From Salinicola halimionae (GTDB taxonomy: Bacteria; Pseudomonadota; Gammaproteobacteria; Pseudomonadales; Halomonadaceae), in contig NZ_PZJQ01000004.1 in assembly GCF_003206065.1 (NCBI RefSeq), positions 370,864 through 434,863 of the forward strand: a stretch of 64,000 nt of DNA, given 5' to 3'. Both the position numbers and the translations under genes were made by a program. The notes below the pieces were generated by a model that was not told where the DNA came from, made no database searches, and was given only the letters and a program-made list of their open reading frames with translations. Below, piece by piece: positions 8,732-21,216 of the stretch. Every line of letters starts with the position of its first letter. Position 1 is the first letter of the stretch.

Positions 8732-9628
8732 ATGTTCAAAGAACTCAGAACCTTTCTTGCCGTCGTGCATCACGGCACGTTTTCCGCTGCTGGCAGTGCC
8801 GTCGGGCTGACCCAGTCAGCGGTCAGTGCGCAGATTCGCAAGCTCGAGTCCGATATCGGCGAGTCGCTGTTCGAGCGTACCGGACGTGCCGTTCGGCTCA
8901 ATGCGGCTGGACGCCGACTATTGCCGCAAGCCAATGAGATGCTGGCGCTGGTCGAGCGGATCCGGCATTCCGGGGCGGACGGTTTGACTGGCGAATGGCA
9001 TCTCGGAGCGATCGCCAGTCTGCAGAGCGGGGTGTTGCCCGAGGTTCTGCAGACGCTGACTCGTGATGTGCCGGGGGTCATGACGCGCATCGTACCCGGT
9101 GTATCGTTGGCGCTGCTCGACCAGGTCGACAAAGGCGATCTGGATATGGCGCTGATCGTCCGGCCGCCGTTTGCGCTACCCGCGGATCTCCATTCCCGCG
9201 TCATCGCTCGAGAGCCGTTCGTGTTGATCGCGCCGCCCCATGCCGAAGGCGGTACGGTGGAATCGCTGCTCGAAAACTATCCACTGGTGCTTTACGACCG
9301 GGGCTCCTTCGGTGGGCGTCAGGTGGTGCGTTTTCTCGAACGGCGGAGGTTGCGGCCGGAAATTCGACTGGAGCTCGATGAAATCGATGCCATCGCGCGA
9401 ATGGTGGAGTGCGGTCTGGGCGTCGCTCTGATCCCGCTGACAGGGCTTTGGCAGCGTCAACAGCCGCTGCCGGTACGCGTGATTTCACTGGAAGAGCAAA
9501 GCTTCCATCGAGAACTGATCATGGTGTCGCGACTATCGCCGGATCAGTCGCCGCTGGTGGCCTTGATCGAAGAGGCGCTGGTGGACACGCAGAGCACTCC
9601 CTTCCCAATCAACGAACCGATGCAATGA
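8732..9628 (+). CDS. LysR-family transcriptional regulator
   Basis: This 298-residue LysR regulator has the helix-turn-helix in residues 16-40 (FSAAGSAVGLTQSAVSAQIRKLE) and an effector domain with the IVRPPFAL and ECGLGVALIPL strands. It lies between the divergent VOC gene and a pirin gene 90 bases downstream. Its likely targets are either or both; that is inference. No strong ribosome site precedes the ATG. Confidence 0.9.
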   Translation: MFKELRTFLAVVHHGTFSAAGSAVGLTQSAVSAQIRKLESDIGESLFERTGRAVRLNAAGRRLLPQANEMLALVERIRHSGADGLTGEWHLGAIASLQSGVLPEVLQTLTRDVPGVMTRIVPGVSLALLDQVDKGDLDMALIVRPPFALPADLHSRVIAREPFVLIAPPHAEGGTVESLLENYPLVLYDRGSFGGRQVVRFLERRRLRPEIRLELDEIDAIARMVECGLGVALIPLTGLWQRQQPLPVRVISLEEQSFHRELIMVSRLSPDQSPLVALIEEALVDTQSTPFPINEPMQ

Positions 9629-11879: not shown

Positions 11880-11957
11880 ATGACCAACGCCCATGAACAG
11901 AGCGAACATCGACCCGCGATCATCGCGCGGCAGCGGTGCCGGGTGGAAGCCTTATGA
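11880..11957 (+). CDS. 25-codon upstream frame overlapping the MFS start
   Basis: ATG at 11880 follows CAGGGG by about 6 bases and opens a 25-residue frame that ends MRVEAL-like in the order CRVEAL then TGA at 11955-11957. That TGA overlaps the ATG of the MFS gene in the ATGA arrangement used for translational coupling. The peptide has five arginines, three of them in its last ten residues, and no membrane segment. I do not recognise it; it may be a leader peptide, a coupling device, or the remnant of a larger gene. Confidence 0.45.
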   Translation: MTNAHEQSEHRPAIIARQRCRVEAL

Positions 11958-13270
11958 AACCCCTTGCGAGCACAGGGTTTGCGCTGTTGGGGGCAGGGCT
12001 GATCGCGATCAGTTACGGCCTCGCGCGTTTCGCCTTTGGGCTGTTCGTGCCGCCCATCCGCGACGAGCTGGGCCTCGCGCCGGACACGATCGGCATCATC
12101 GGCGCGCTGCCGCTGATCAGCTTCCTGTTCGCCACCCTGGTTGCGCCACTTGCCACCCACTATTTCGGTGCCCGCAATGCAGCGGTGCTCTCCGGGGCGT
12201 TCGGGGTCGGCGGTCTGGCGCTGATTAGCCAGGCCTCCGGCGCGCTGTTGCTCGGCGCGGGGGTGTTCGCCTGCGGCATCTGTACCGGTCTGATGATGCC
12301 TGCGCTCACGGCGGCCATGCAGGCGCTGGTGAAACGCTCGCTGCATGGACGCGTAAGCTCGGTGATGAACGCGGGTACCAGCATCGGTCTGGTCTTGGCC
12401 GTACCGACGGTGCTGTTCCTGACCGGGGCCTGGCGTTTCGCATACGTCTCATTTGCCGTAATAGCGGTCATCGGCGTGGTCGCTGCGTGGCTCTTCCTAC
12501 CCTCGGTGTCGCGAATCACTCCGTCGAATGCCGCACCGCCGCCGCCGATCAGCGCGCTGCCGTGGTCGCGTCTGGTCAGGCTCTCGCTGTTTGCCTTCGT
12601 GATGGGCTTCGTTGCATCCGCCTACTGGATATTCGCGCCCGATCTGGTGGTCAGCCTCGGTGGTTTGCCGCCCAGCGCCACCGGGTGGCTGTGGCTCGCG
12701 GTAGGCATCGCAGGCCTCGGCGGCGCCTTCGTGGCCGACCTGGCCGATCGCAACAATCCGCCTATCACGCAAGCCCTGATGCTGATGATGCTCGCCGCGA
12801 GCCTGGCCTTGCTCGCGGCCAGCCCCGGCCAGTCGGTGCTGGCGGTCTTTTCCGCGCTGATCTTCGGCTTGGCCTACATGAGCCTGACCGGACTCTACCT
12901 GATGACCGGCATTCGCCTGTTGCCGGGCCGGCTGGCAGCGGGGCCGGTACTGCCTTTCATGGCCTTGTCGCTGGGACAAGCGACCGGCTCGCCCGTCGTC
13001 GGCCTGCTGGTTAACGCATTCGGTTACACCCAGGCATTTGCCATGTTCTCGGCGCTCGGCATCCTGGTGGCTATCCTCTCGCCCTTCTACCCCGGCTACA
13101 TCGCTCAGGCTGAAGAGGAAGAGAGCGACGAAGAATCCGGCCTTCAGGCAGCCTACGATTATCAGCTTCAAGACGAAGTCGGCGAGCCACTGGAACCTGC
13201 AGCGGATGACGCGGAAAACCCGGAGTCAGTTGATAAGCGCGGAACGGGTGATGAGCCGCGGCCACCTTGA
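11954..13270 (+). CDS. MFS transporter (YbfB/YjiJ-like)
   Basis: This 438-residue major facilitator protein has 12 hydrophobic segments and starts with the GLARFAFG helix-1 pattern of the YbfB/YjiJ group. The last 60 or so residues form a strongly acidic cytoplasmic tail (AEEEESDEESG and on) without family match, as is common in halophiles. ATG at 11954 is preferred: GTGGAAG precedes it and it overlaps the upstream 25-codon frame; GTG at 11936 is an alternative. Substrate unknown. No regulator is adjacent. Confidence 0.88.
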   Translation: MKPLASTGFALLGAGLIAISYGLARFAFGLFVPPIRDELGLAPDTIGIIGALPLISFLFATLVAPLATHYFGARNAAVLSGAFGVGGLALISQASGALLLGAGVFACGICTGLMMPALTAAMQALVKRSLHGRVSSVMNAGTSIGLVLAVPTVLFLTGAWRFAYVSFAVIAVIGVVAAWLFLPSVSRITPSNAAPPPPISALPWSRLVRLSLFAFVMGFVASAYWIFAPDLVVSLGGLPPSATGWLWLAVGIAGLGGAFVADLADRNNPPITQALMLMMLAASLALLAASPGQSVLAVFSALIFGLAYMSLTGLYLMTGIRLLPGRLAAGPVLPFMALSLGQATGSPVVGLLVNAFGYTQAFAMFSALGILVAILSPFYPGYIAQAEEEESDEESGLQAAYDYQLQDEVGEPLEPAADDAENPESVDKRGTGDEPRPP

Positions 13271-13308
13271 GTTGAGCCGACCGGCATCACAAATAGCATG
13301 GAAAAGGT

Positions 13309-13343
13309 CATCTCTGCATCACGCGTGGCGAGATGCAGAGATG
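13309..13343. terminator. 12-bp perfect hairpin downstream of the MFS gene
   Basis: CATCTCTGCATC and GATGCAGAGATG form an uninterrupted 12-bp stem with an 11-base loop, about 40 bases after the MFS stop. No T-tract follows, so it is either a T-less terminator or an RNA-stabilising 3' hairpin. Confidence 0.45.
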
Positions 13344-13442
13344 CTAGCTAGCGCCCGGCAGGACTTCATCGCCTGTCTGCTGCCGGTTTACCGGGGCAAG
13401 CCACGGCTGGTGCCCATTCAGCCGGTGCCACGCCAATCAGCA

Positions 13443-13820
13443 TTACCATAGCCAGCTATCGACCTTGTCAGGCGCGCGGTGTTCCTGCAATGCCTTGAAC
13501 CCTATCACGCAGCGCACAATCAGCCAGACGGTTTGCAGTGCCATGAGCACGAAACCGATCAGCACGAAGGCCAGTATCCAACTGATACAGGCGTAGAGCA
13601 GGCCGATCCAGAAAGTACGAATATGGTAGCGATAGTGCTCGTCCAGCCAGCGTGGGCCATTGCCCCGGTAGACGTAGGCGATGATCACGCCGATAACCGG
13701 CGTGATGCCGGTGATGAAGACGCCGAGGAGCAGGGCATACACGATCATGGCTAGCGTGGTGTCTGGGCGCTTGGCTTCGGTGTTCGATTCGGCGATAGGG
13801 GTATCGAGCGGTGAAGACAT
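13443..13820 (-). CDS. Small inner-membrane protein (COG3671/DUF4870-like)
   Basis: This 125-residue protein has a polar N-terminus of about 20 residues and then three to four membrane segments. It carries the YVYRGNGPRWLDEHYRYHIRTFWIG block between them and ends with SWLW. This pattern recurs in small uncharacterised proteobacterial membrane proteins; the function is unknown. GAGAGGAA sits just before the ATG at 13820. It is downstream of eboB on the same strand, 115 bases away, so read-through from ebo transcription is possible but not shown. Confidence 0.8.
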   Translation of the reverse strand: MSSPLDTPIAESNTEAKRPDTTLAMIVYALLLGVFITGITPVIGVIIAYVYRGNGPRWLDEHYRYHIRTFWIGLLYACISWILAFVLIGFVLMALQTVWLIVRCVIGFKALQEHRAPDKVDSWLW

Positions 13821-13935
13821 AGGGTTCCTCTCGTCGGCTTATCGGGGGGTGTCCGTATTTTGCCGCCGAGAGGCGTCAGGTGCCACTTCCTCGGGAATGG
13901 CAGTGAAAATGGCGAAACAGGTGGAATCCTGAGCG

Positions 13936-14856
13936 TTATTCGATGAGCAGGTTGTCCCGTCGCCTCGTGGGGGCAGTCTCGACAAGAGGATCGCGGCCGC
14001 CACGCAGAATCGAGTTGCCTTCGAATAGCGTGCGTTGGTCGATGGGGTCTGGATCGAGCCAGTCGGAGGCCTGCATCTGACCGCTCTTGCCGTAGACAGT
14101 GAGTGCGTTTTCATAAGTGACCCGACGCACCACGGACTCGGAAATACCGGACTCGAGCGCCAACTGCGCAGTCTTGGGAACACCAAGGCAGTCGGAAATT
14201 CCCCAGTCGCAGGCGCTGTCAACGATGATGCGATCACCGCCATACTGCTTGAGCAGTTCGACCATGCGCGCATTGCCCATCTTGGTCGAGGGGTAGATGG
14301 AAAAGCCTGCCCAGTAGCCCCGATCCAGTGTCTCGCGCACCGTCTCTTCATTGTTGTGGTCGATCACTACCCAGGAGGGATCGAGACCCATCTCTTCGCA
14401 CACGTCCATCGAGCGTGAGGTGCCACGCTTTTTATCGCGATGAGGGGTATGCACCATTACCGGCAGCTCGAGCTCCTTGGCCAGGGTCAGCTGGGCACGA
14501 AAGTATTTGTCCTCGAGCGGTGTCTGCTCGTCGTAGCCGATCTCACCGATGGCAACCACGCCTTCCTTCATGGCGAAGCGCGGTAGCCACTCCATCACGC
14601 CTTCGGCCAGTGCCTCGTTATTGGCTTCCTTGGAATTGAGGCCGATGGTGCAGTAGTGACGGATGCCGAACTGGCCGGCACGGAAGCGCTCCCAGCCGAC
14701 CAGCGAAGAAAGATAGTCGACATAGGTGCCGACGAAAGTCCGTGGCTGGCCGACCCAGAAGGCCGGCTCGACCAGTGCCACGATGCCAGCGGCAGCCATG
14801 GCTTCGTAGTCATCGGTGGTACGAGAGACCATGTGGGCGTGGGGATCGATGAACAT
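13936..14856 (-). CDS. eboB: EboB: TatD-like metal-dependent hydrolase of the ebo cluster
   Basis: This 306-residue TIM-barrel amidohydrolase resembles TatD. Metal-ligand positions are visible: H6 and H8 in DPHAHM, Glu in GEIGYDE, His in VMVHTPHR, His in VIDHNNEE, and Asp in VDSACDWG. It is a canonical member of the six-gene ebo cluster known from cyanobacteria, some pseudomonads and eustigmatophyte algal endosymbionts. Its reaction there is unknown. The start ATG follows the eboA stop by one base, with GGCCGCC just before, so the two are translated together. Confidence 0.9.
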   Translation of the reverse strand: MFIDPHAHMVSRTTDDYEAMAAAGIVALVEPAFWVGQPRTFVGTYVDYLSSLVGWERFRAGQFGIRHYCTIGLNSKEANNEALAEGVMEWLPRFAMKEGVVAIGEIGYDEQTPLEDKYFRAQLTLAKELELPVMVHTPHRDKKRGTSRSMDVCEEMGLDPSWVVIDHNNEETVRETLDRGYWAGFSIYPSTKMGNARMVELLKQYGGDRIIVDSACDWGISDCLGVPKTAQLALESGISESVVRRVTYENALTVYGKSGQMQASDWLDPDPIDQRTLFEGNSILRGGRDPLVETAPTRRRDNLLIE

Positions 14857-14857
14857 C

Positions 14858-15724
14858 TCAGGCGGCCTCTTGCAGAGTCAGGTTGTCCCAATTGATGCGA
14901 CCCTCTGCCACCAGTGCGGTGGTGTCGGGTGTGGTCAGCAACAGGGTTCGAGCGGAAGGGGTGTCGGAAGCGGTCAACGCGAGGGTGGCTGCGCCACGTT
15001 CGTCGGATGTTCCCGCCAGTGCGCGCTGCAGCGCCTCGTAAGCCGATACGCTCTCCGCGAAGGGGCCAATGCAGCGCCATAGCTCCGGGCTGACCTGGCG
15101 TCCGGCAGCCCAGCGCTCCTGGGCGTAATCGAGCAAAATTCTCGCCAGCTCGGCGTTGGCGCGTTGGTCGAGGCCGACGATCGGTCCCAGACGACTGCCG
15201 ATAAATAGCGCCTTGAGTACTATGTGGTTCCAGCGATGCTCGTCGAAGTGATCGCGCGGATAAGGGTTGCGGTGAACGATGGACTCGAATACTGCCCGCA
15301 TATTGGAGCGCAGCCCTTCGCCCACTTCGAAGGTTAGCGACTCCGCCTGGGAATAGAGCGCCAACCCTCGATATAGCGTGATCAGTTCACGGGCATCGGC
15401 GGTTCTGACCAGGTCCTGAAACGTGTCCGGGAACGGGCGAGGACCACGGAAGGTCAGCAACGCGGCGATGCGGGCCGCGCCATCGAGACTCCAGCCCGAG
15501 GGATTCCAGCCTGGGTAGGCCCGATTCGCCAGCGCCAGATCTGCTGGCGATAGCGCCAAATCCTGCTTGCCGAGACGTCGGGGTGCCAGGCCTAGAAACA
15601 AGTGCAGATCGCACTCGTTAGCGCTCTCGCTGAGTCGGGCGTACTGCGCGTCGAGCCATTCCGCATGGTCGGGTGTCTGGCGGTAGACCCACTCGCGGAG
15701 TAGCTCCAAAGATGTAACTGGCAT
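14858..15724 (-). CDS. eboA: EboA-domain protein
   Basis: This 288-residue largely helical protein matches EboA by length, composition and context: the N-terminal REWVYRQ helix, the central LYRGLALY and EGLRSNMRAVFESI blocks, and the HRWNHIVLKALFI segment. EboA has no known catalytic activity and no clear signal peptide. ATG at 15724 is chosen since homologues start near this point; a TTG at 15778 would add 18 residues but has its GGGAG too close. It is the first gene of the leftward eboAB pair. Confidence 0.85.
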   Translation of the reverse strand: MPVTSLELLREWVYRQTPDHAEWLDAQYARLSESANECDLHLFLGLAPRRLGKQDLALSPADLALANRAYPGWNPSGWSLDGAARIAALLTFRGPRPFPDTFQDLVRTADARELITLYRGLALYSQAESLTFEVGEGLRSNMRAVFESIVHRNPYPRDHFDEHRWNHIVLKALFIGSRLGPIVGLDQRANAELARILLDYAQERWAAGRQVSPELWRCIGPFAESVSAYEALQRALAGTSDERGAATLALTASDTPSARTLLLTTPDTTALVAEGRINWDNLTLQEAA

Positions 15725-16024
15725 GTAAGATTCCGGCCTGATGTTCGATGCCACTACTTTATCGACTGTTGAAAACAACTCCCAAGCTCAATTAACTGGC
15801 TAATTAATGTGCCGTTTTCGAGTAATGGATTCGTTTTTACAATTGAGGTTTTTGAGTCTATTTGAATCTGATCTAACCAGATTTTTCGTGTTAATTGCGG
15901 ATAATTGAGCGAAAAAATGAATGTCGATTGTCTGATGACACGTTGGCTGATAAGGAGTCTTTACATATCGTTTCGATAGGTCGTGACGGTGGGAACCCTA
16001 TGACTCAATCGGCAGGCAGGAGCC
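15725..16024. promoter_or_regulatory. AT-rich divergent control region of eboAB and eboF
   Basis: These 300 bases separate eboA from eboF. The middle (15780-15930) is clearly AT-rich compared with flanking genes and has no believable frame. AATCTG (15865-15870) pairs with CAGATT (15878-15883) and is followed by T's, a small hairpin. On the minus strand TTGGGA and GATAAA are 16 bases apart near 15786-15759, a weak promoter match for eboAB. No match is strong enough to call for eboF. Confidence 0.4.
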
Positions 16025-17461
16025 ATGCACAATACCCTGGTAATTCTCGTGGTGGGGTTGACGCCCCGTCTGGTCGGTGAACACACGCCGGCCTTGAAAC
16101 GTCTTGCCGAGCGTGGCGGAGTGCGCCCGCTCAATACCGTGACGCCTGCGGTGACATGTAGCGTGCAGGCAACGCTCGTGACCGGTTTGCCACCCAGCGA
16201 GCATGGTGCCGTGGCCAATGGCTGGTATTTCCGGGATCTTGCTGAAGTGTGGTTCTGGCGCCAATCCAATCGTCTGGTCACCGGTGAAAAAATCTGGGAA
16301 GCCGGCAAACGGAAGAATCCCGACTTTACCTGCGCCAAACTGTTCTGGTGGTACAACATGTACTCGACGGCAGACTGGAGCGCGACTCCCCGGCCCATGT
16401 ACCCTGCAGACGGTCGCAAGTTGCCGGATCATTACACCTCTCCGCCTGCACTGCATGACGAACTCGATGAACGATTGGGAACGTTTCCGCTGTTCAGCTT
16501 CTGGGGGCCGATGGCCGACATCTCCTCGAGCCGCTGGATCAGCGATGCCACGCGCCATGTCATGGAAACCCGCGACCCGACACTGACGCTGACCTATCTG
16601 CCGCATCTGGACTACAACCTCCAGCGTCTGGGGCCGGATCTTTCCCACCCTGAATTGCAGCGTGATCTCAGAGACGTCGATGCGTTGTGCGGCGAGCTGA
16701 TCGACGCGGCCGATCGGGAAGGGCGGCGGGTCATCGTGGTGTCCGAATACGGGATTACACCGGTGCGCGATGCCGTCCATATCAATCGCGTGTTGCGCGA
16801 GGCAGGCCTGGTGGCCGTGCGTCGCGAGAAGGCGCAGGAACAACTCGATGCCGGCGCCTCACGGGCATTTGCGGTTGCCGACCATCAGGTGGCGCACGTC
16901 TACGTCAACGACCCGACAGAGATTCCGAAAGTCAGGGCGCTGCTCGAAGGACTCGAGGGTGTGGAGGCCGTCTGGGGCGATAGCGAAAAACGTGAACAGG
17001 GGCTCGACCATCCCAACTCGGGAGATCTGGTGGCGATTGCCGAACCGGATCGGTGGTTCAGTTACTACTACTGGCTGGATGACGCTCGAGCGCCGGACTA
17101 TGCGCGTACCGTCGATATCCACCGCAAGCCGGGGTACGACCCGGTGGAGCTGTTCTTCGATCCTGCGCTGAAGTCGCCCAAACTGTCGGCGGGCTGGCGT
17201 CTCGCCAAGCGCAAGCTGGGCATGCGCCAGCTGCTGGATGTCATTTCTCTCAAGGACACCACGCTGGTCAAGGGCGCCCACGGGAGGGTGACAGACGACC
17301 CAGACATGGGGCCGCTGGTGATCTCGTCCGAAGCGGACCTGCTGCCGCAGGGTGCGCTCAAGGCCGTCGATTTCAAGGCGCTGGTACTGACACATGTATT
17401 CGGGGACGAGAAAGGTGATACGTCGTCGCGGGAGACCGCTGCCGATGCTGCCAGCGCCTGA
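16025..17461 (+). CDS. eboF: EboF: alkaline-phosphatase-superfamily (NPP-like) protein
   Basis: This 478-residue cytoplasmic protein has the nucleotide pyrophosphatase/phosphodiesterase fold. The nucleophile region PAVTCSVQATLVTG puts the threonine at 44, and D196 and H419 (GAHG) fit metal-ligand positions. By eye alignment several others differ from canonical enzymes: no Asp at the first strand, Q200 for His, and E241-Y242 for the Asp-His pair. It is the ebo cluster phosphodiesterase-like member. GGCAGGAG precedes the ATG. It is transcribed rightward alone, opposite to all other ebo genes, and ends at a strong terminator. Confidence 0.9.
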   Translation: MHNTLVILVVGLTPRLVGEHTPALKRLAERGGVRPLNTVTPAVTCSVQATLVTGLPPSEHGAVANGWYFRDLAEVWFWRQSNRLVTGEKIWEAGKRKNPDFTCAKLFWWYNMYSTADWSATPRPMYPADGRKLPDHYTSPPALHDELDERLGTFPLFSFWGPMADISSSRWISDATRHVMETRDPTLTLTYLPHLDYNLQRLGPDLSHPELQRDLRDVDALCGELIDAADREGRRVIVVSEYGITPVRDAVHINRVLREAGLVAVRREKAQEQLDAGASRAFAVADHQVAHVYVNDPTEIPKVRALLEGLEGVEAVWGDSEKREQGLDHPNSGDLVAIAEPDRWFSYYYWLDDARAPDYARTVDIHRKPGYDPVELFFDPALKSPKLSAGWRLAKRKLGMRQLLDVISLKDTTLVKGAHGRVTDDPDMGPLVISSEADLLPQGALKAVDFKALVLTHVFGDEKGDTSSRETAADAASA

Positions 17462-17521
17462 GGCGGTCGCGCTTCAGCGTCGAGTCATGGCATAGGAAAG
17501 ATATCGGGAGACGCAGGAAAG

Positions 17522-17558
17522 CCGGGGCGACATCTTCACGATGCCGCCCCGGTTTTTT
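17522..17558 (+). terminator. Strong terminator after eboF
   Basis: CCGGGGCGACATC pairs with GATGCCGCCCCGG (13 bp, one mismatch) over a 5-base loop, followed by six T's. It separates convergent eboF and eboC transcription. Confidence 0.92.
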
Positions 17559-17615
17559 GTGTTTCAGAGGTTGTCGTCGATCAAATGCTATCTCTCCAAG
17601 TGTTCAAGCAAGTGT

Positions 17616-18542
17616 TCAAGTGCCGGAAGTTACTCGCTGCAGCGCCAAGGTCGCGGCGAATGCCAGCACGCCCAGCAAAGCCATCCCATCCGCTCCCATG
17701 GCCGCCATCAGCGTGGCGTCATAGAGCGAAATCGCAGCGATAAGACCCACGACGGCACGGGGCACGTCTCCCGGCGCGCGGCGGAAAAGCCACATCAGAC
17801 AGCGTGCTCCCCAGGCCAGATAGCCCAGCCATAGCATCAGGGCGAGTAGTGAAGGTTCGGGGCCGATCAGCATGGTAGCCAGCATCAATACGACGGGGAC
17901 TGCCAATACGCCGAGGGGCCAAGCCGCACCCAGACGGTCGTAGGCTTCCTGGCGAGCGGCGTAGGTCAGACCGACGACATGGCAAGCGAGGCCTAGCGCA
18001 CCCCATACGACCATGTCGTTGAGCGTATTGGTGACCACCAGCGCTGCCGTCAGATAGGTGAGAAAACGGCACGCCCCCATCAGCAGCGGGCTCCAGCCGA
18101 TCCGCTTGTGCCACCAGTCGTAGCTCAGGATCGCGGCGATCAGCGCAAGCCCCGTCACCCCGGCAGAGGGGTGGCTCAGGAACAGCAGTAGACCTCCCAG
18201 AGCGAGCATTCCGGCACCCAGCAGCGAGACGGTCAGGCGGTCGATATCCCCCCGCGGGATCGGCCGATCGGCGCGCTCACGCGCGTCGATCTCGGCATCG
18301 CAAGCATCATTGAGATACATGCCGCCGAGGTAGAAGAGCGTCAGTGCCAGCAGCAGAGGCAAGGCGGTGCCAGAATGCCATAGAGCACCGGCCCCCGCGC
18401 CGGCCAGTACGACCCCGGCCAGCACGTTGCTCCAGACCGTGGGCAGGTTGGAAACCCGGCCCAGTTCCAGCCAGACTCTCGAGTTCAGCCCGGGTACCTT
18501 TGAACTCCGTAGCGTGGAAGCCTCTGGTTCTGATATTGGCAC
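17616..18542 (-). CDS. eboC: EboC: UbiA-like membrane prenyltransferase
   Basis: This 308-residue protein has about nine membrane segments and the UbiA-type aspartate motif NDACDAEID with RPIPRG after it, which binds prenyl diphosphate through magnesium. The second aspartate region is less canonical (SYDWWHKR). UbiA enzymes prenylate aromatic or cyclic acceptors; the acceptor for EboC is unknown. The frame runs far upstream inside eboE, so the start must lie near the eboE stop: GTG at 18542, two bases after that TGA, is the only suitable codon. No good ribosome site precedes it, consistent with coupling. Confidence 0.88.
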   Translation of the reverse strand: MPISEPEASTLRSSKVPGLNSRVWLELGRVSNLPTVWSNVLAGVVLAGAGAGALWHSGTALPLLLALTLFYLGGMYLNDACDAEIDARERADRPIPRGDIDRLTVSLLGAGMLALGGLLLFLSHPSAGVTGLALIAAILSYDWWHKRIGWSPLLMGACRFLTYLTAALVVTNTLNDMVVWGALGLACHVVGLTYAARQEAYDRLGAAWPLGVLAVPVVLMLATMLIGPEPSLLALMLWLGYLAWGARCLMWLFRRAPGDVPRAVVGLIAAISLYDATLMAAMGADGMALLGVLAFAATLALQRVTSGT

Positions 18543-18544
18543 GT

Positions 18545-19729
18545 TCAGGTCAGCTGCTGCTTGACCCAGGTCAGTTCCCGCGCCACGGCCGTCTCCACGC
18601 TCTCGGTGCGTAGGTTCTCCGGTAATACCTGCCATGTGTAGGTCTCCACTTCCAGATGCTGGGAAATCGGCTGCTGACGATGCAGAGCGAGAATGTCGGC
18701 GAGAAACGACTGCGTGGTCTCGAACGGCGGAATCGTCTCCACGAAGATCGGCACGTGATAGTGGATCCGCCATTCCTCGCCATCGGTGCGGGCGTCGTCA
18801 GCTAGCGCCTCGGGAAGGTCCGCATATCGCACCAGCCCGTGGTCGGTGGCTACCACGACCTGGTGCAGATAGGTGCGTTCGCAGAACGGGACCAGCGCCT
18901 CGCGTTTGGCGGCATCGAACTGCGGAATCCGCAGTGCCGCGCTCAGTTGCAGCTTGTGGATGGGAATGCCGGCCGTGCGCAGCGCCTCGATACTGGTGGC
19001 AGGATCTTCGAACTCGACGGCGGCGTGACAGACGTCGTAACAGACGCCGAGGTGGCGTGGCAGCGCCTGCTTCGCCTCGTCGAGCGACAAGCCACTGAGC
19101 TCGCTCAGGCGCGCTGCAGCGGCGTCGGAATAGAGCCAGTCGCGGAAGAAGGCAACGGTTTCCGCGATGGTTTCCAGAAAGCAGTGGGGCTCGGGCTCCA
19201 ACGCAATCGCGATGGTCACCTGGGTCTGTCGAGCCAGCTCCACACAGTGAGCCGCCGCCTTGAGCAGATTGTCCGCCATCTGCGATTGTGCGCCCTCGGC
19301 CAGGGGTTTGAAGGTGCCGGGTACGGTGCTCAGGCTCAAGGTATCGCCAGCGGCACCGAGTTCACTCATCAGATCGGCCAGCCAGCAGGTATAGTCCAGT
19401 CGGGCGCGCTGCTTCCAGTCGGGCTGATAAACGTTCTGTTTGACCGGGATGCCATGGAAGGGGCCGAACGGGAACCCGTTCATGGTCACCACACGGTAGT
19501 TCTCCCGGGCGAGAATGTCCTTGAGCTCGGCACGTGCGTCGGGGGCGCGAAGTTCCTCTAGCGCCTGGGCGGACAGGCGCAACCCCACGCCGAAGGTCGC
19601 TTCCGGGGAGACGGCTTCACGCACCCGTTTCACCGGCCCGAGCAGCGCGTCACGTACGGCTTCCCAGGTCTGGGTCGGATGAATATTGAGACAGTAGGTC
19701 AGTTGACCCAGATCATCAGGCAGCTGCAT
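18545..19729 (-). CDS. eboE: EboE: TIM-barrel sugar-isomerase-like protein
   Basis: This 394-residue protein belongs to the EboE family, related to xylose-isomerase-type TIM barrels. Likely metal-site residues are in ALEPEPH (Glu), CYDVCHAAV (Asp/His) and the later ATDHGL strand. The N-terminus LTYCLNIHPTQTWEAV is characteristic. ATG at 19729 is chosen over 19744 because GAGG lies 9 bases upstream, inside the end of eboD. It overlaps eboD by 14 bases, so eboD-eboE-eboC behave as one operon. The substrate is unknown; in cyanobacteria the cluster is linked to moving a scytonemin precursor to the periplasm. Confidence 0.9.
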   Translation of the reverse strand: MQLPDDLGQLTYCLNIHPTQTWEAVRDALLGPVKRVREAVSPEATFGVGLRLSAQALEELRAPDARAELKDILARENYRVVTMNGFPFGPFHGIPVKQNVYQPDWKQRARLDYTCWLADLMSELGAAGDTLSLSTVPGTFKPLAEGAQSQMADNLLKAAAHCVELARQTQVTIAIALEPEPHCFLETIAETVAFFRDWLYSDAAAARLSELSGLSLDEAKQALPRHLGVCYDVCHAAVEFEDPATSIEALRTAGIPIHKLQLSAALRIPQFDAAKREALVPFCERTYLHQVVVATDHGLVRYADLPEALADDARTDGEEWRIHYHVPIFVETIPPFETTQSFLADILALHRQQPISQHLEVETYTWQVLPENLRTESVETAVARELTWVKQQLT

Positions 19730-21008
19730 GGCTATTCGCCTCATCGCGCAGCCAGTCGATCGCGGCTGTCATGGTGGTTTCATCGATCTCGTGAACGTCG
19801 TGCCCGCGACCCAGGCCGGCCAGCAGCGTGATCGTGAGTTCGCCGCCGAGATGTTCCTGGAATTCTCTAAGACCCGTCAGTATGGCGGGCTGGCCATCGT
19901 CGTCGATTTCCAGCAACTGGGCATGGAAGACTGGCAGACCCAGGCGCTTCAGCAGCCACACGATGCGCCATTCGGCACCGGCGGGAAGCAGGCCCGTCAA
20001 CACGGAATAACGGGCATCTAGGGCGATGCCGATGGCGACGGCTTCGCCGTGGCTGATGCCGTGATGGGTCAGCGTCTCGAGTTTGTGCGCCGACCAGTGT
20101 CCGTAATCCAGCGGGCGAGACGAACCCAGTTCGAACGGGTCGCCGCCGCGGCCGATCTGCTGCATGTGCAGCTCGGCACTGCGTCGGATCATGATCTCTT
20201 CGGTGCGCGGGTCGAACTCGGCCAATGAATCGGCGTTGGTCTCGAGCCAGTCGAAAAAGGCACCATCGCGAATCAGGGCCACCTTGATCGCCTCGGAGAT
20301 ACCGGCGATCCGATCTCGTCGCGAGAGCGTGCCGAGAAAATCGAAGTCGTTGAGCACCGCCCAGGGCGGGGCGAAGGTACCGATGAAATTCTTGTGACCT
20401 TTGAAGTTGACGGCATTCTTGACCCCGACGCCGCTATCGTTCTGTGACAGCACGGTCGTCGGCAGACGAATCAGTCGCACGCCGCGATGACCCATGGCAG
20501 CGGCGAGGCCGAGCGCATCCAGTACCGCACCGCCGCCAATGACGATGACGTAGGCATGCCGATCGACACCAAAGCGCTGGATATCTTCCAGCACCCCGTC
20601 GATCGTCTCACGATTGGTCTTGATGGATTCTCCACCCGTTACCGTGATCGGCGCGGTCACCAGGGTCATCTGACTCGCATGGGTAGCGAAGTAAGCGTTG
20701 ATTCGGGACTCGAGGTCCGGCCAGGTAGCGGCAATGCCGGCATCGACGTAAATCAGGCAGCGGTGATTCTTGCGCGGCTCTTTGCGTGAAATGACGTCGG
20801 CCAGCAGCGAGTTGTCGGGGGAAAAGATTTCCCGGGTGAACGCGACGGGATAGTCATAGGCAACGGAAAATCGCTGCCAATGGATCTCTGTCGATGATGA
20901 ACGTTGAAAGGTATCGTGCTGCCTGATCGACTGCGGCTGCGTCGTGAAGGATGGCGAATCGAGGGCGACATTGCCATCGATCGAAAACGATAATGCGGGC
21001 CGGTTCAT
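19716..21008 (-). CDS. eboD: EboD: sugar-phosphate cyclase related to 3-dehydroquinate synthase
   Basis: This 430-residue protein is a sugar-phosphate cyclase. It has the NAD-binding GGGAVLDALGLAAA, the PTTVLSQNDSGVGVKNAVN block, zinc-ligand regions GISEAIK and GHWSAHKLE, and HHGISHGEAVAIG. The first 60 residues are an extension absent from AroB. AroB itself is usually encoded beside aroK, so this paralogue is unlikely to be the shikimate enzyme; the cyclitol it makes is not known. It is the first gene of the leftward eboD-E-C operon. AGGCGAT precedes the ATG by about 7 bases. Confidence 0.92.
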   Translation of the reverse strand: MNRPALSFSIDGNVALDSPSFTTQPQSIRQHDTFQRSSSTEIHWQRFSVAYDYPVAFTREIFSPDNSLLADVISRKEPRKNHRCLIYVDAGIAATWPDLESRINAYFATHASQMTLVTAPITVTGGESIKTNRETIDGVLEDIQRFGVDRHAYVIVIGGGAVLDALGLAAAMGHRGVRLIRLPTTVLSQNDSGVGVKNAVNFKGHKNFIGTFAPPWAVLNDFDFLGTLSRRDRIAGISEAIKVALIRDGAFFDWLETNADSLAEFDPRTEEIMIRRSAELHMQQIGRGGDPFELGSSRPLDYGHWSAHKLETLTHHGISHGEAVAIGIALDARYSVLTGLLPAGAEWRIVWLLKRLGLPVFHAQLLEIDDDGQPAILTGLREFQEHLGGELTITLLAGLGRGHDVHEIDETTMTAAIDWLRDEANSHAAA

Positions 21009-21216
21009 GAAGTTATCGCCTGCGTAAGGGGTCCGAAAACGAAAAAGCGGACCGCTTCGTTATCGGGCGGTCTCGCTTGGCCTCTAGCTTGGGTTTCACG
21101 GAGCTAGCTTCGGGGTTCTACGGGGCAGGCGACAAGAATGGTTCTTTTGCTACGAAGTATTAGCAGCATATCGAGTTTTTGAACGTGTCGACTCTCATTA
21201 AAACGTCGGCAGCGAT

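Follow-up and report, generated by a model that had tools for sequence, protein, structure and literature searches.

A complete ebo gene set, divergent by two family models

The window analysed here, a stretch of 64,000 nucleotides from Salinicola halimionae (contig NZ_PZJQ01000004.1), carries at positions 13936-21008 a complete ebo cluster, i.e. homologs of EboA to EboF that are physically clustered as six adjoining genes. We somewhat favour the view that ebo is a pathway for making, modifying and prenylating a cyclitol, and that the resulting cyclitol lipid aids the passage of a metabolite across the inner membrane. The evidence comes from the cyclase EboD, from actinobacterial clusters in which its slot looks swappable, and from an altered active site in EboF. 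That all six ebo members are present had been predicted from the DNA alone, and Pfam, NCBIfam and profiles built between clusters confirm it. The genes are as follows (positions in the window).

eboB, 13936..14856, minus strand: metallo-dependent hydrolase superfamily (TatD-like); H6, H8, E105, H136, H139, H167 and D217 conserved
eboA, 14858..15724, minus strand: predicted all-helical fold; open reading frame (ORF) open to TTG 15778, likely start ATG 15724
eboF, 16025..17461, plus strand: PF01663 family; metal-ligand positions changed
eboC, 17616..18542, minus strand: UbiA-superfamily prenyltransferase; NDxxDxxxD motif (N78, D79, D82, D86)
eboE, 18545..19744, minus strand: xylose-isomerase-like TIM barrel
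eboD, 19716..21008, minus strand: sugar phosphate cyclase, not AroB

EboE (434 bits against an NCBIfam cut-off of 250) and the EboA domain (157 bits against 50) provide the strongest family evidence in the set, so that the two family matches on which the original prediction could have failed are both present. The full EboA subfamily model of NCBIfam gave 213 bits, below its cut-off of 320, and EboC gave 112 bits, below 250. Because the strict EboC and the full-length EboA models are not passed, the set is divergent as judged by these two models. No model named EboB, EboD or EboF occurred in the NCBIfam results; the calls for these proteins rest on Pfam (TatD, 64 bits for EboB; DHQ synthase, 114 bits for EboD; Phosphodiest, 223 bits for EboF), on the profiles built between clusters and, for EboD, also on PRK06203, which it passes with 564 bits against 333. 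Two gene starts needed attention. The eboC ORF (17616-18773) is too long, and its homologous part begins at about 18542 (GTG, 308 amino acids). For eboA, the start probably lies at ATG 15724 and not at TTG 15778: the alignments with most relatives set in only at about residue 14-22, and many relatives have CATG there.

EboD differs from both DHQS and ValA at the sites compared

A tree was built from 32 of the 73 EboD sequences, the organism's own AroB, four solved 3-dehydroquinate synthases (DHQS) and ValA. As AroB we took the one additional DHQ-synthase match in the genome, which lies on another contig (C7). The tree splits AroB and DHQS from EboD and ValA with a support of 100, and EboD scores 209 bits with the aroB model TIGR01357, below the cut-off of 305. 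On these grounds we rejected EboD as a second AroB; a grouping with housekeeping AroB, which would have contradicted the original prediction, is not seen.

The active-site residues point in the same direction. The zinc ligands E239, H304 and H320 are kept in 32/32 sequences; EboD also keeps the lysines 197, 206 and 242. At position 297 the Arg of DHQS is replaced by Ser, Ala or Gly, which differs from DHQS and ValA alike, and Trp 305 occurs in neither of the two. Asp 301, in place of the DHQS Asn, and Arg 298 are as in ValA; His 308 is as in DHQS. For the enzyme family, 14 fingerprint sites have been described (PMC4426668). By the sites checked, EboD is neither a DHQS nor a ValA. It should be noted that PRK06203, the model that EboD passes, is itself named 3-dehydroquinate synthase, which speaks against a non-DHQS assignment; Yurchenko 2016 (PMC5133447) considers this naming unfounded for EboD.

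Most actinobacterial clusters carry a possible alternative cyclase

SCO3242 represents a related actinobacterial prenyltransferase family. Of the six genomes reached through loci, three had a match over the cut-off of its model; a set of 60 genomes from a single class yielded ten. Since one genome was common to both searches, this amounts to 12 genomes with 13 loci (L173-L175 and L195-L204). In 14 control genomes, matches below cut-off were obtained with the SCO3242 model (10 genomes) and the EboD model (12 genomes), and none over cut-off. The actinobacterial clusters resemble ebo in that homologs of C, A, B, E and F are found in all 13 loci, on a single strand and, judging from ORF spans, in this order. 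The sole actinobacterial EboE that was run on NCBIfam is over the EboE cut-off with 400 bits. The clusters differ from ebo in their weak EboA match (88-124 bits), for which a fusion to a TIM barrel has been described (PMC5133447), and above all in their first gene. An inositol-phosphate synthase homolog stands first, before C, in 11 of the 13 loci, whereas the EboD model is over cut-off in none of the 12 genomes (0/12). All 12 contain weaker EboD-model matches, which fit AroB.

The synthase model was built from two of those 11 genes. Both are confirmed by Pfam, and both, at 29 and 46 bits, fall far short of the 638 bits required by the mycothiol Ino1 model. With the synthase model nothing was found at E<=1e-5 in the 119 other loci or in the first 40 kb of the window. 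The best solved relative of the homolog in L173 is the myo-inositol-1-phosphate synthase 1u1i (218 bits). Judged from these gene neighbourhoods, it looks as if one cyclitol-making enzyme replaces another, i.e. as if the cyclase slot were swappable. Such a swap would lend independent support to a cyclitol head group. In Streptomyces coelicolor, SCO3242 and SCO3243 (myo-inositol phosphate synthase) have been listed under the CDA cluster (PMC3610822). The swap itself was not found in the open-licence literature of PubMed Central, which is a partial library; the words 'inositol' and 'active site' are absent from the main text of PMC5133447, as is 'inositol' from that of PMC9235831.

Altered metal-ligand positions in EboF

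EboF had been predicted to be phosphodiesterase-like. The family membership stands, as the protein passes the Pfam model for type I phosphodiesterases and nucleotide pyrophosphatases with 223 bits against 23; the active site, on the other hand, is changed. EboF aligns weakly with the solved nucleotide pyrophosphatase 2gsn, yet at the expected motifs, and here V10, Q200, E241 and Y242 replace D, H, D and H, so the usual two-metal ligand set is absent. We take V10 to correspond to the first metal Asp, Q200 to a metal His and E241-Y242 to an Asp-His pair. T44 (the nucleophile), D196 and H419 are kept.

These substitutions are highly uniform. Q200, E241 and Y242 are the same in 74/74 ebo and 13/13 actinobacterial EboF sequences, V10 is found in 73/74 and 13/13, and H419 in 74/74 and 12/13, the remainder being gaps. 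The residue comparison across ebo loci excludes two frameshifted loci (L046, L050), four duplicates (L141, L087, L088, L120), any locus in which the number of ebo genes is below four, and matches covering less than 70% of the profile. Because the four usual metal-ligand positions are changed in all readable sequences, the annotation of EboF as a phosphodiesterase appears doubtful. Of the two frameshifted loci, L046 shows matches to eboD, eboC, eboF and eboA, and L050 to eboE and eboD, in separate frames or pieces, through either decay or assembly error.

EboA, EboB, EboC and EboE

EboA is predicted to be all-helical (predicted local distance difference test, pLDDT, 94.5), and many of its weak top structure matches are helical-repeat proteins. 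The EboE model (pLDDT 94.9) yielded 99 PDB matches at E<=0.001, with a query-normalised template modelling score of about 0.4-0.5 among the matches listed. Its structural relatives include xylose isomerases, D-tagatose 3-epimerase, the dehydroshikimate dehydratase AsbF and IolI, and the model thus has the predicted fold of a xylose-isomerase-like TIM barrel. The EboE profile found nothing up to E 1 among PDB sequences, and a PHROGs search with EboA and EboE returned nothing.

In EboB, each position of the metal site HxH, E, H, H, D is occupied as expected in 72 or 73 of 73 sequences, the rest being gaps; this is the TatD-like metal-site motif. EboC passes the Pfam UbiA model (60.6 bits against 34.2), and N78, D79, D82 and D86 of the first Asp-rich motif are present in 68/68 sequences.

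EboE homologs also occur outside ebo clusters. In 28 of the 119 loci an EboE homolog was seen with no other ebo gene detected (e.g. L123, L133, L148, L151); some of these are short contigs. Several of the lone genes adjoin genes that look, by eye, like sugar ATP-binding cassette transporters, dehydrogenases and a transketolase-like enzyme, which suggests a role in the catabolism of a sugar or polyol. In one genome with a full ebo set, there is in addition a separate EboE-like gene (L084, 7987-9249; 227 bits, below cut-off) that stands by itself.

A proposed pathway and its alternatives

In the pathway that we propose, EboD would form a keto-cyclitol by ring closure of a phosphorylated ketose, which is probably a heptulose phosphate. 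The keto-cyclitol could then be reworked by EboB and by EboE, whose fold is that of a metal-dependent isomerase, epimerase or dehydratase, before EboC would join a prenyl chain to it in the membrane. The all-helical EboA may hold the partners together. The step carried out by EboF is probably something other than phosphodiester hydrolysis by the classical two-metal route. The pathway would end in a cyclitol lipid, which would assist the passage of another metabolite through the inner membrane; Klicki 2018 made such a proposal for the scytonemin monomer. More tentatively, and at somewhat less than even probability, we regard ebo as one pathway with an exchangeable entry enzyme, EboD or the inositol-phosphate synthase homolog. 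In this extended form A, B, C, E and F would build a prenyl-cyclitol export carrier, and EboF would be an alkaline-phosphatase fold that has been rebuilt, with new chemistry and no more than one of the usual metal sites. A prenylated cyclitol was proposed in 2016 (PMC5133447) and the role as a lipid carrier in 2018 (Klicki, PMC6282210). The prenylated cyclitol-like compound of the original prediction is therefore not new, and the apparent cyclase swap favours it.

A number of observations weigh against the proposed pathway. The most serious one is that Ubi-297, an EboC of marine Flavobacteria, farnesylated quinoline acids in vitro (PMC9235831). In the open-licence PubMed Central literature that we found, no ebo product is identified, and eboD was not one of the genes deleted in Nostoc (PMC6282210), which leaves its need there unproven. 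The branching order of EboD and ValA has a support of only 43, and EboC stays below its NCBIfam cut-off. At EboC 193-199, T is followed by variable residues and E199; positions 194, 197 and 198 vary, almost without Asp. A second Asp-rich motif would be expected around EboC 194-198. D275 of EboC is Gln in 13/13 actinobacterial sequences. The EboA model has no PDB structure match at E<=0.001. Glu or Gln at the changed EboF positions could still bind metal, and the idea that the EboF changes track an unphosphorylated product was rejected, as actinobacterial EboF has the same residues. The swap, too, is incomplete, as 2 of the 13 actinobacterial loci lack a synthase homolog. One of them (L199) has a dehydrogenase before C that is below cut-off for both levoglucosan dehydrogenase (373 bits against 650) and inositol dehydrogenase (111 against 355). 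The other (L203) has a flavin adenine dinucleotide (FAD) oxidoreductase in the position of the synthase and a gene of the inositol-monophosphatase family further up; it is a second copy, and the other copy in the same genome has the synthase. Finally, the L173 homolog also matches, more weakly (41 bits), a solved five-membered-cyclitol-phosphate synthase, so that the ring made by the homolog could be of either size.

The activity of Ubi-297 leads to the first alternative, in which ebo makes a prenylated aromatic: EboD would feed a shikimate-like aromatic acid, which EboC farnesylates. The enzyme preferred 8-hydroxyquinoline-2-carboxylic and quinaldic acid (PMC9235831), and the presence of AsbF among the fold relatives of EboE fits as well. 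However, aromatic or quinoline-like acceptors had been anticipated beforehand in that study, EboD lacks the Arg and Asn of DHQS, and the actinobacterial versions have an inositol-phosphate synthase homolog instead. We consider this alternative unlikely. A little less probable still is that the Ebo proteins are mainly a membrane-bound translocation complex in which the enzymes are parts and not makers of a lipid. Each ebo deletion studied in Nostoc, eboD not among them, left the monomer in the cytoplasm (PMC6282210); the changed metal-ligand positions of EboF and the predicted all-helical model of EboA, resembling many scaffolds, would also suit such a complex. Yet EboB, EboC, EboD and EboE show almost no variation at their motif residues, which fits catalysis. 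On balance, the prenylated cyclitol remains the reading that we prefer.

Layout of the cluster and its spread

The ebo genes had been described as non-colinear in a three-way arrangement, and their strands and places agree with this: eboA-eboB run leftward, eboF runs rightward, and eboD-eboE-eboC run leftward and converge on eboF. Read along the minus strand, the order is eboD-eboE-eboC, eboF reversed, eboA-eboB, and not the canonical ABCDEF. With ORF starts as given, 29 nt are shared by eboD and eboE, and the spacings are 2 nt between eboE and eboC and 1 nt between eboA and eboB; from the 29-nt overlap and the 2-nt spacing, D-E-C is a tight unit.

To call the arrangement unusual is overstated. 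The layout is identical in 24/24 family relatives that have ebo and therefore did not arise by chance. It also occurs in one of nine class loci with all six genes (15 class loci fetched). A set of named loci, made up of the best 80 of 584 confirmed relatives, is a biased sample for such a tally; 36 of its loci have six genes, and 11 of these share the layout. Three of these 11 are duplicates of family loci, and the remaining eight are alphaproteobacterial by name, e.g. Sulfitobacter, Nitrospirillum and Rhodomicrobium. We thus rejected a layout peculiar to this genome, and one-gene reversals had been described before (PMC5133447). As 13 layouts occur among the 36 six-gene loci, the canonical order does not define ebo; D-E-C is kept together in several other layouts.

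A tree of concatenated EboB, EboE and EboF sequences (49 loci, 1133 columns, the 24 family loci thinned to 8) places the halomonad clusters in one group (9 loci, support 100), which nests with six alphaproteobacterial loci in a clade of 15 (support 96). One of the six, L096, has a different layout. Three further loci with the same layout join with lower support (69-73). The class locus L080, also with this layout, lies on a separate branch. The simplest reading of the tree is that the cluster moved, in one direction or the other, between halomonads and Alphaproteobacteria together with its layout.

ebo behaves as a discrete accessory module

The genomes surveyed for EboE are samples from larger groups. 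Including the organism's own, EboE is found in 25/250 family genomes (2 of the 24 genera sampled), in 17/18 Salinicola genomes and in 15/369 class genomes; the model gave a match below cut-off in 1 of 14 control genomes and none over it. The sole Salinicola member without EboE (G003) has an empty site with the same flanks. It retains LysR, AbgT, two M20 peptidases, DUF4870 and the acyltransferase at 88-96% protein identity, and about 154 bases separate its M20 gene from DUF4870 (locus L214, around 9013-9166). Homology of the flank ends just past the M20 gene and returns about 65-70 bases before DUF4870. From this empty site it follows that the three ebo transcription units were gained or lost together, and ebo behaves as a discrete accessory module, present or absent as a block.

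Ten flanking proteins (8.7-28.2 kb) were analysed with Pfam: two LysR regulators, a pirin, a lipid A acyltransferase family protein, two major facilitator superfamily (MFS) transporters, DUF4870, two M20 peptidases and an AbgT transporter. Nothing among these resembles a product cluster. The M20 peptidases, AbgT, DUF4870 and the lipid A acyltransferase gene were rejected as parts of the module, all being kept in the ebo-less genome, and so was the MFS gene at 11936-13270, which has no match at E<=1e-10 in the stretches of 24 relatives.

Non-coding elements

Three non-coding features accompany the genes.

AT-rich divergent region eboAB/eboF, 15725..16024, no strand: short conserved blocks near both ends in 16/17 genus loci aligned
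GC-rich inverted repeat followed by six T, 17522..17558, no strand: between the converging eboF and eboC; putative terminator, seen by eye
eboD leader, 21020..21154, minus strand: block 21131-21154, GAAGCTA 21105-21111, TACGCAG 21020-21026

The shared gap is AT-rich, as originally noted: the GC fraction is 0.447 in 15800-16099 and 0.57-0.67 in the neighbouring 300-base steps of 13100-17899. A consensus scan found no sigma-70-type site in 15725-16024. The inverted repeat is not among the three sites from the terminator scan.

The gap alignment comprised 16 of the 17 genus loci, and the alignments of the eboD leader 11 and 15 of 17. In the 15 aligned loci, 23/24 columns of the leader block at 21131-21154 are invariant. 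The block has one copy in the genome and is found in 17/18 genus genomes, exactly those with ebo. A 5' arm of the leader could form base pairs with the sequence immediately ahead of the start codon. A structured RNA is unsupported: three Rfam matches were far below gathering scores, the covariation term was -0.24, and of the 15 predicted pairs 1 has changes in both partners. A terminator-like site at 21058-21044 was one of 3 found, against 5.0 in shuffles. A coding peptide in the block was thought unlikely, as codon third positions are, by eye, not notably variable.

Within the genus, sequence blocks are conserved both in the divergent gap and ahead of eboD. Together with the failure to find the leader block in eight sister-genus loci, they could be taken to mean that the three-way layout is a rearrangement with a regulatory meaning special to this lineage. 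Since the sister genus and the eight alphaproteobacterial loci share the layout, such a peculiarity is largely refuted and we hold it to be highly improbable.

Relation to known ebo systems

The same six families make up the ebo operon of Yurchenko 2016 (PMC5133447), a paper that reports differing gene orders as well as clusters of six genes in which a single one is inverted. The order A-B-C-D-E-F is given there for plastids, Bacteroidetes and cyanobacteria, in contrast to D-E-C, F reversed, A-B here. The ebo genes of Nostoc punctiforme (Klicki 2018, PMC6282210) are homologous, but there they are linked with scytonemin genes, and eboD lies close to the actual cluster without being part of it, whereas no product cluster was found in the flanks tested here. 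According to the same paper, the EDB cluster of a Pseudomonas fluorescens strain (nematode avoidance) has the full ebo set and differs by extra non-ebo genes. For a role of ebo in moving a metabolite to the periplasm, the genetics come from another species only (PMC6282210). To the known six-gene ebo set and the cyclitol and carrier proposals, the present analysis adds evidence on the mechanism from the apparent cyclase swap, EboD and EboF, which we consider useful.

Salinicola is a good place to pursue this mechanism, with no product cluster in the tested flanks, ebo in 17/18 genomes and a natural null in the ebo-less member of the genus. If the cyclase slot is truly swappable, the head group would be a cyclitol, and the question of the ebo product would become testable.

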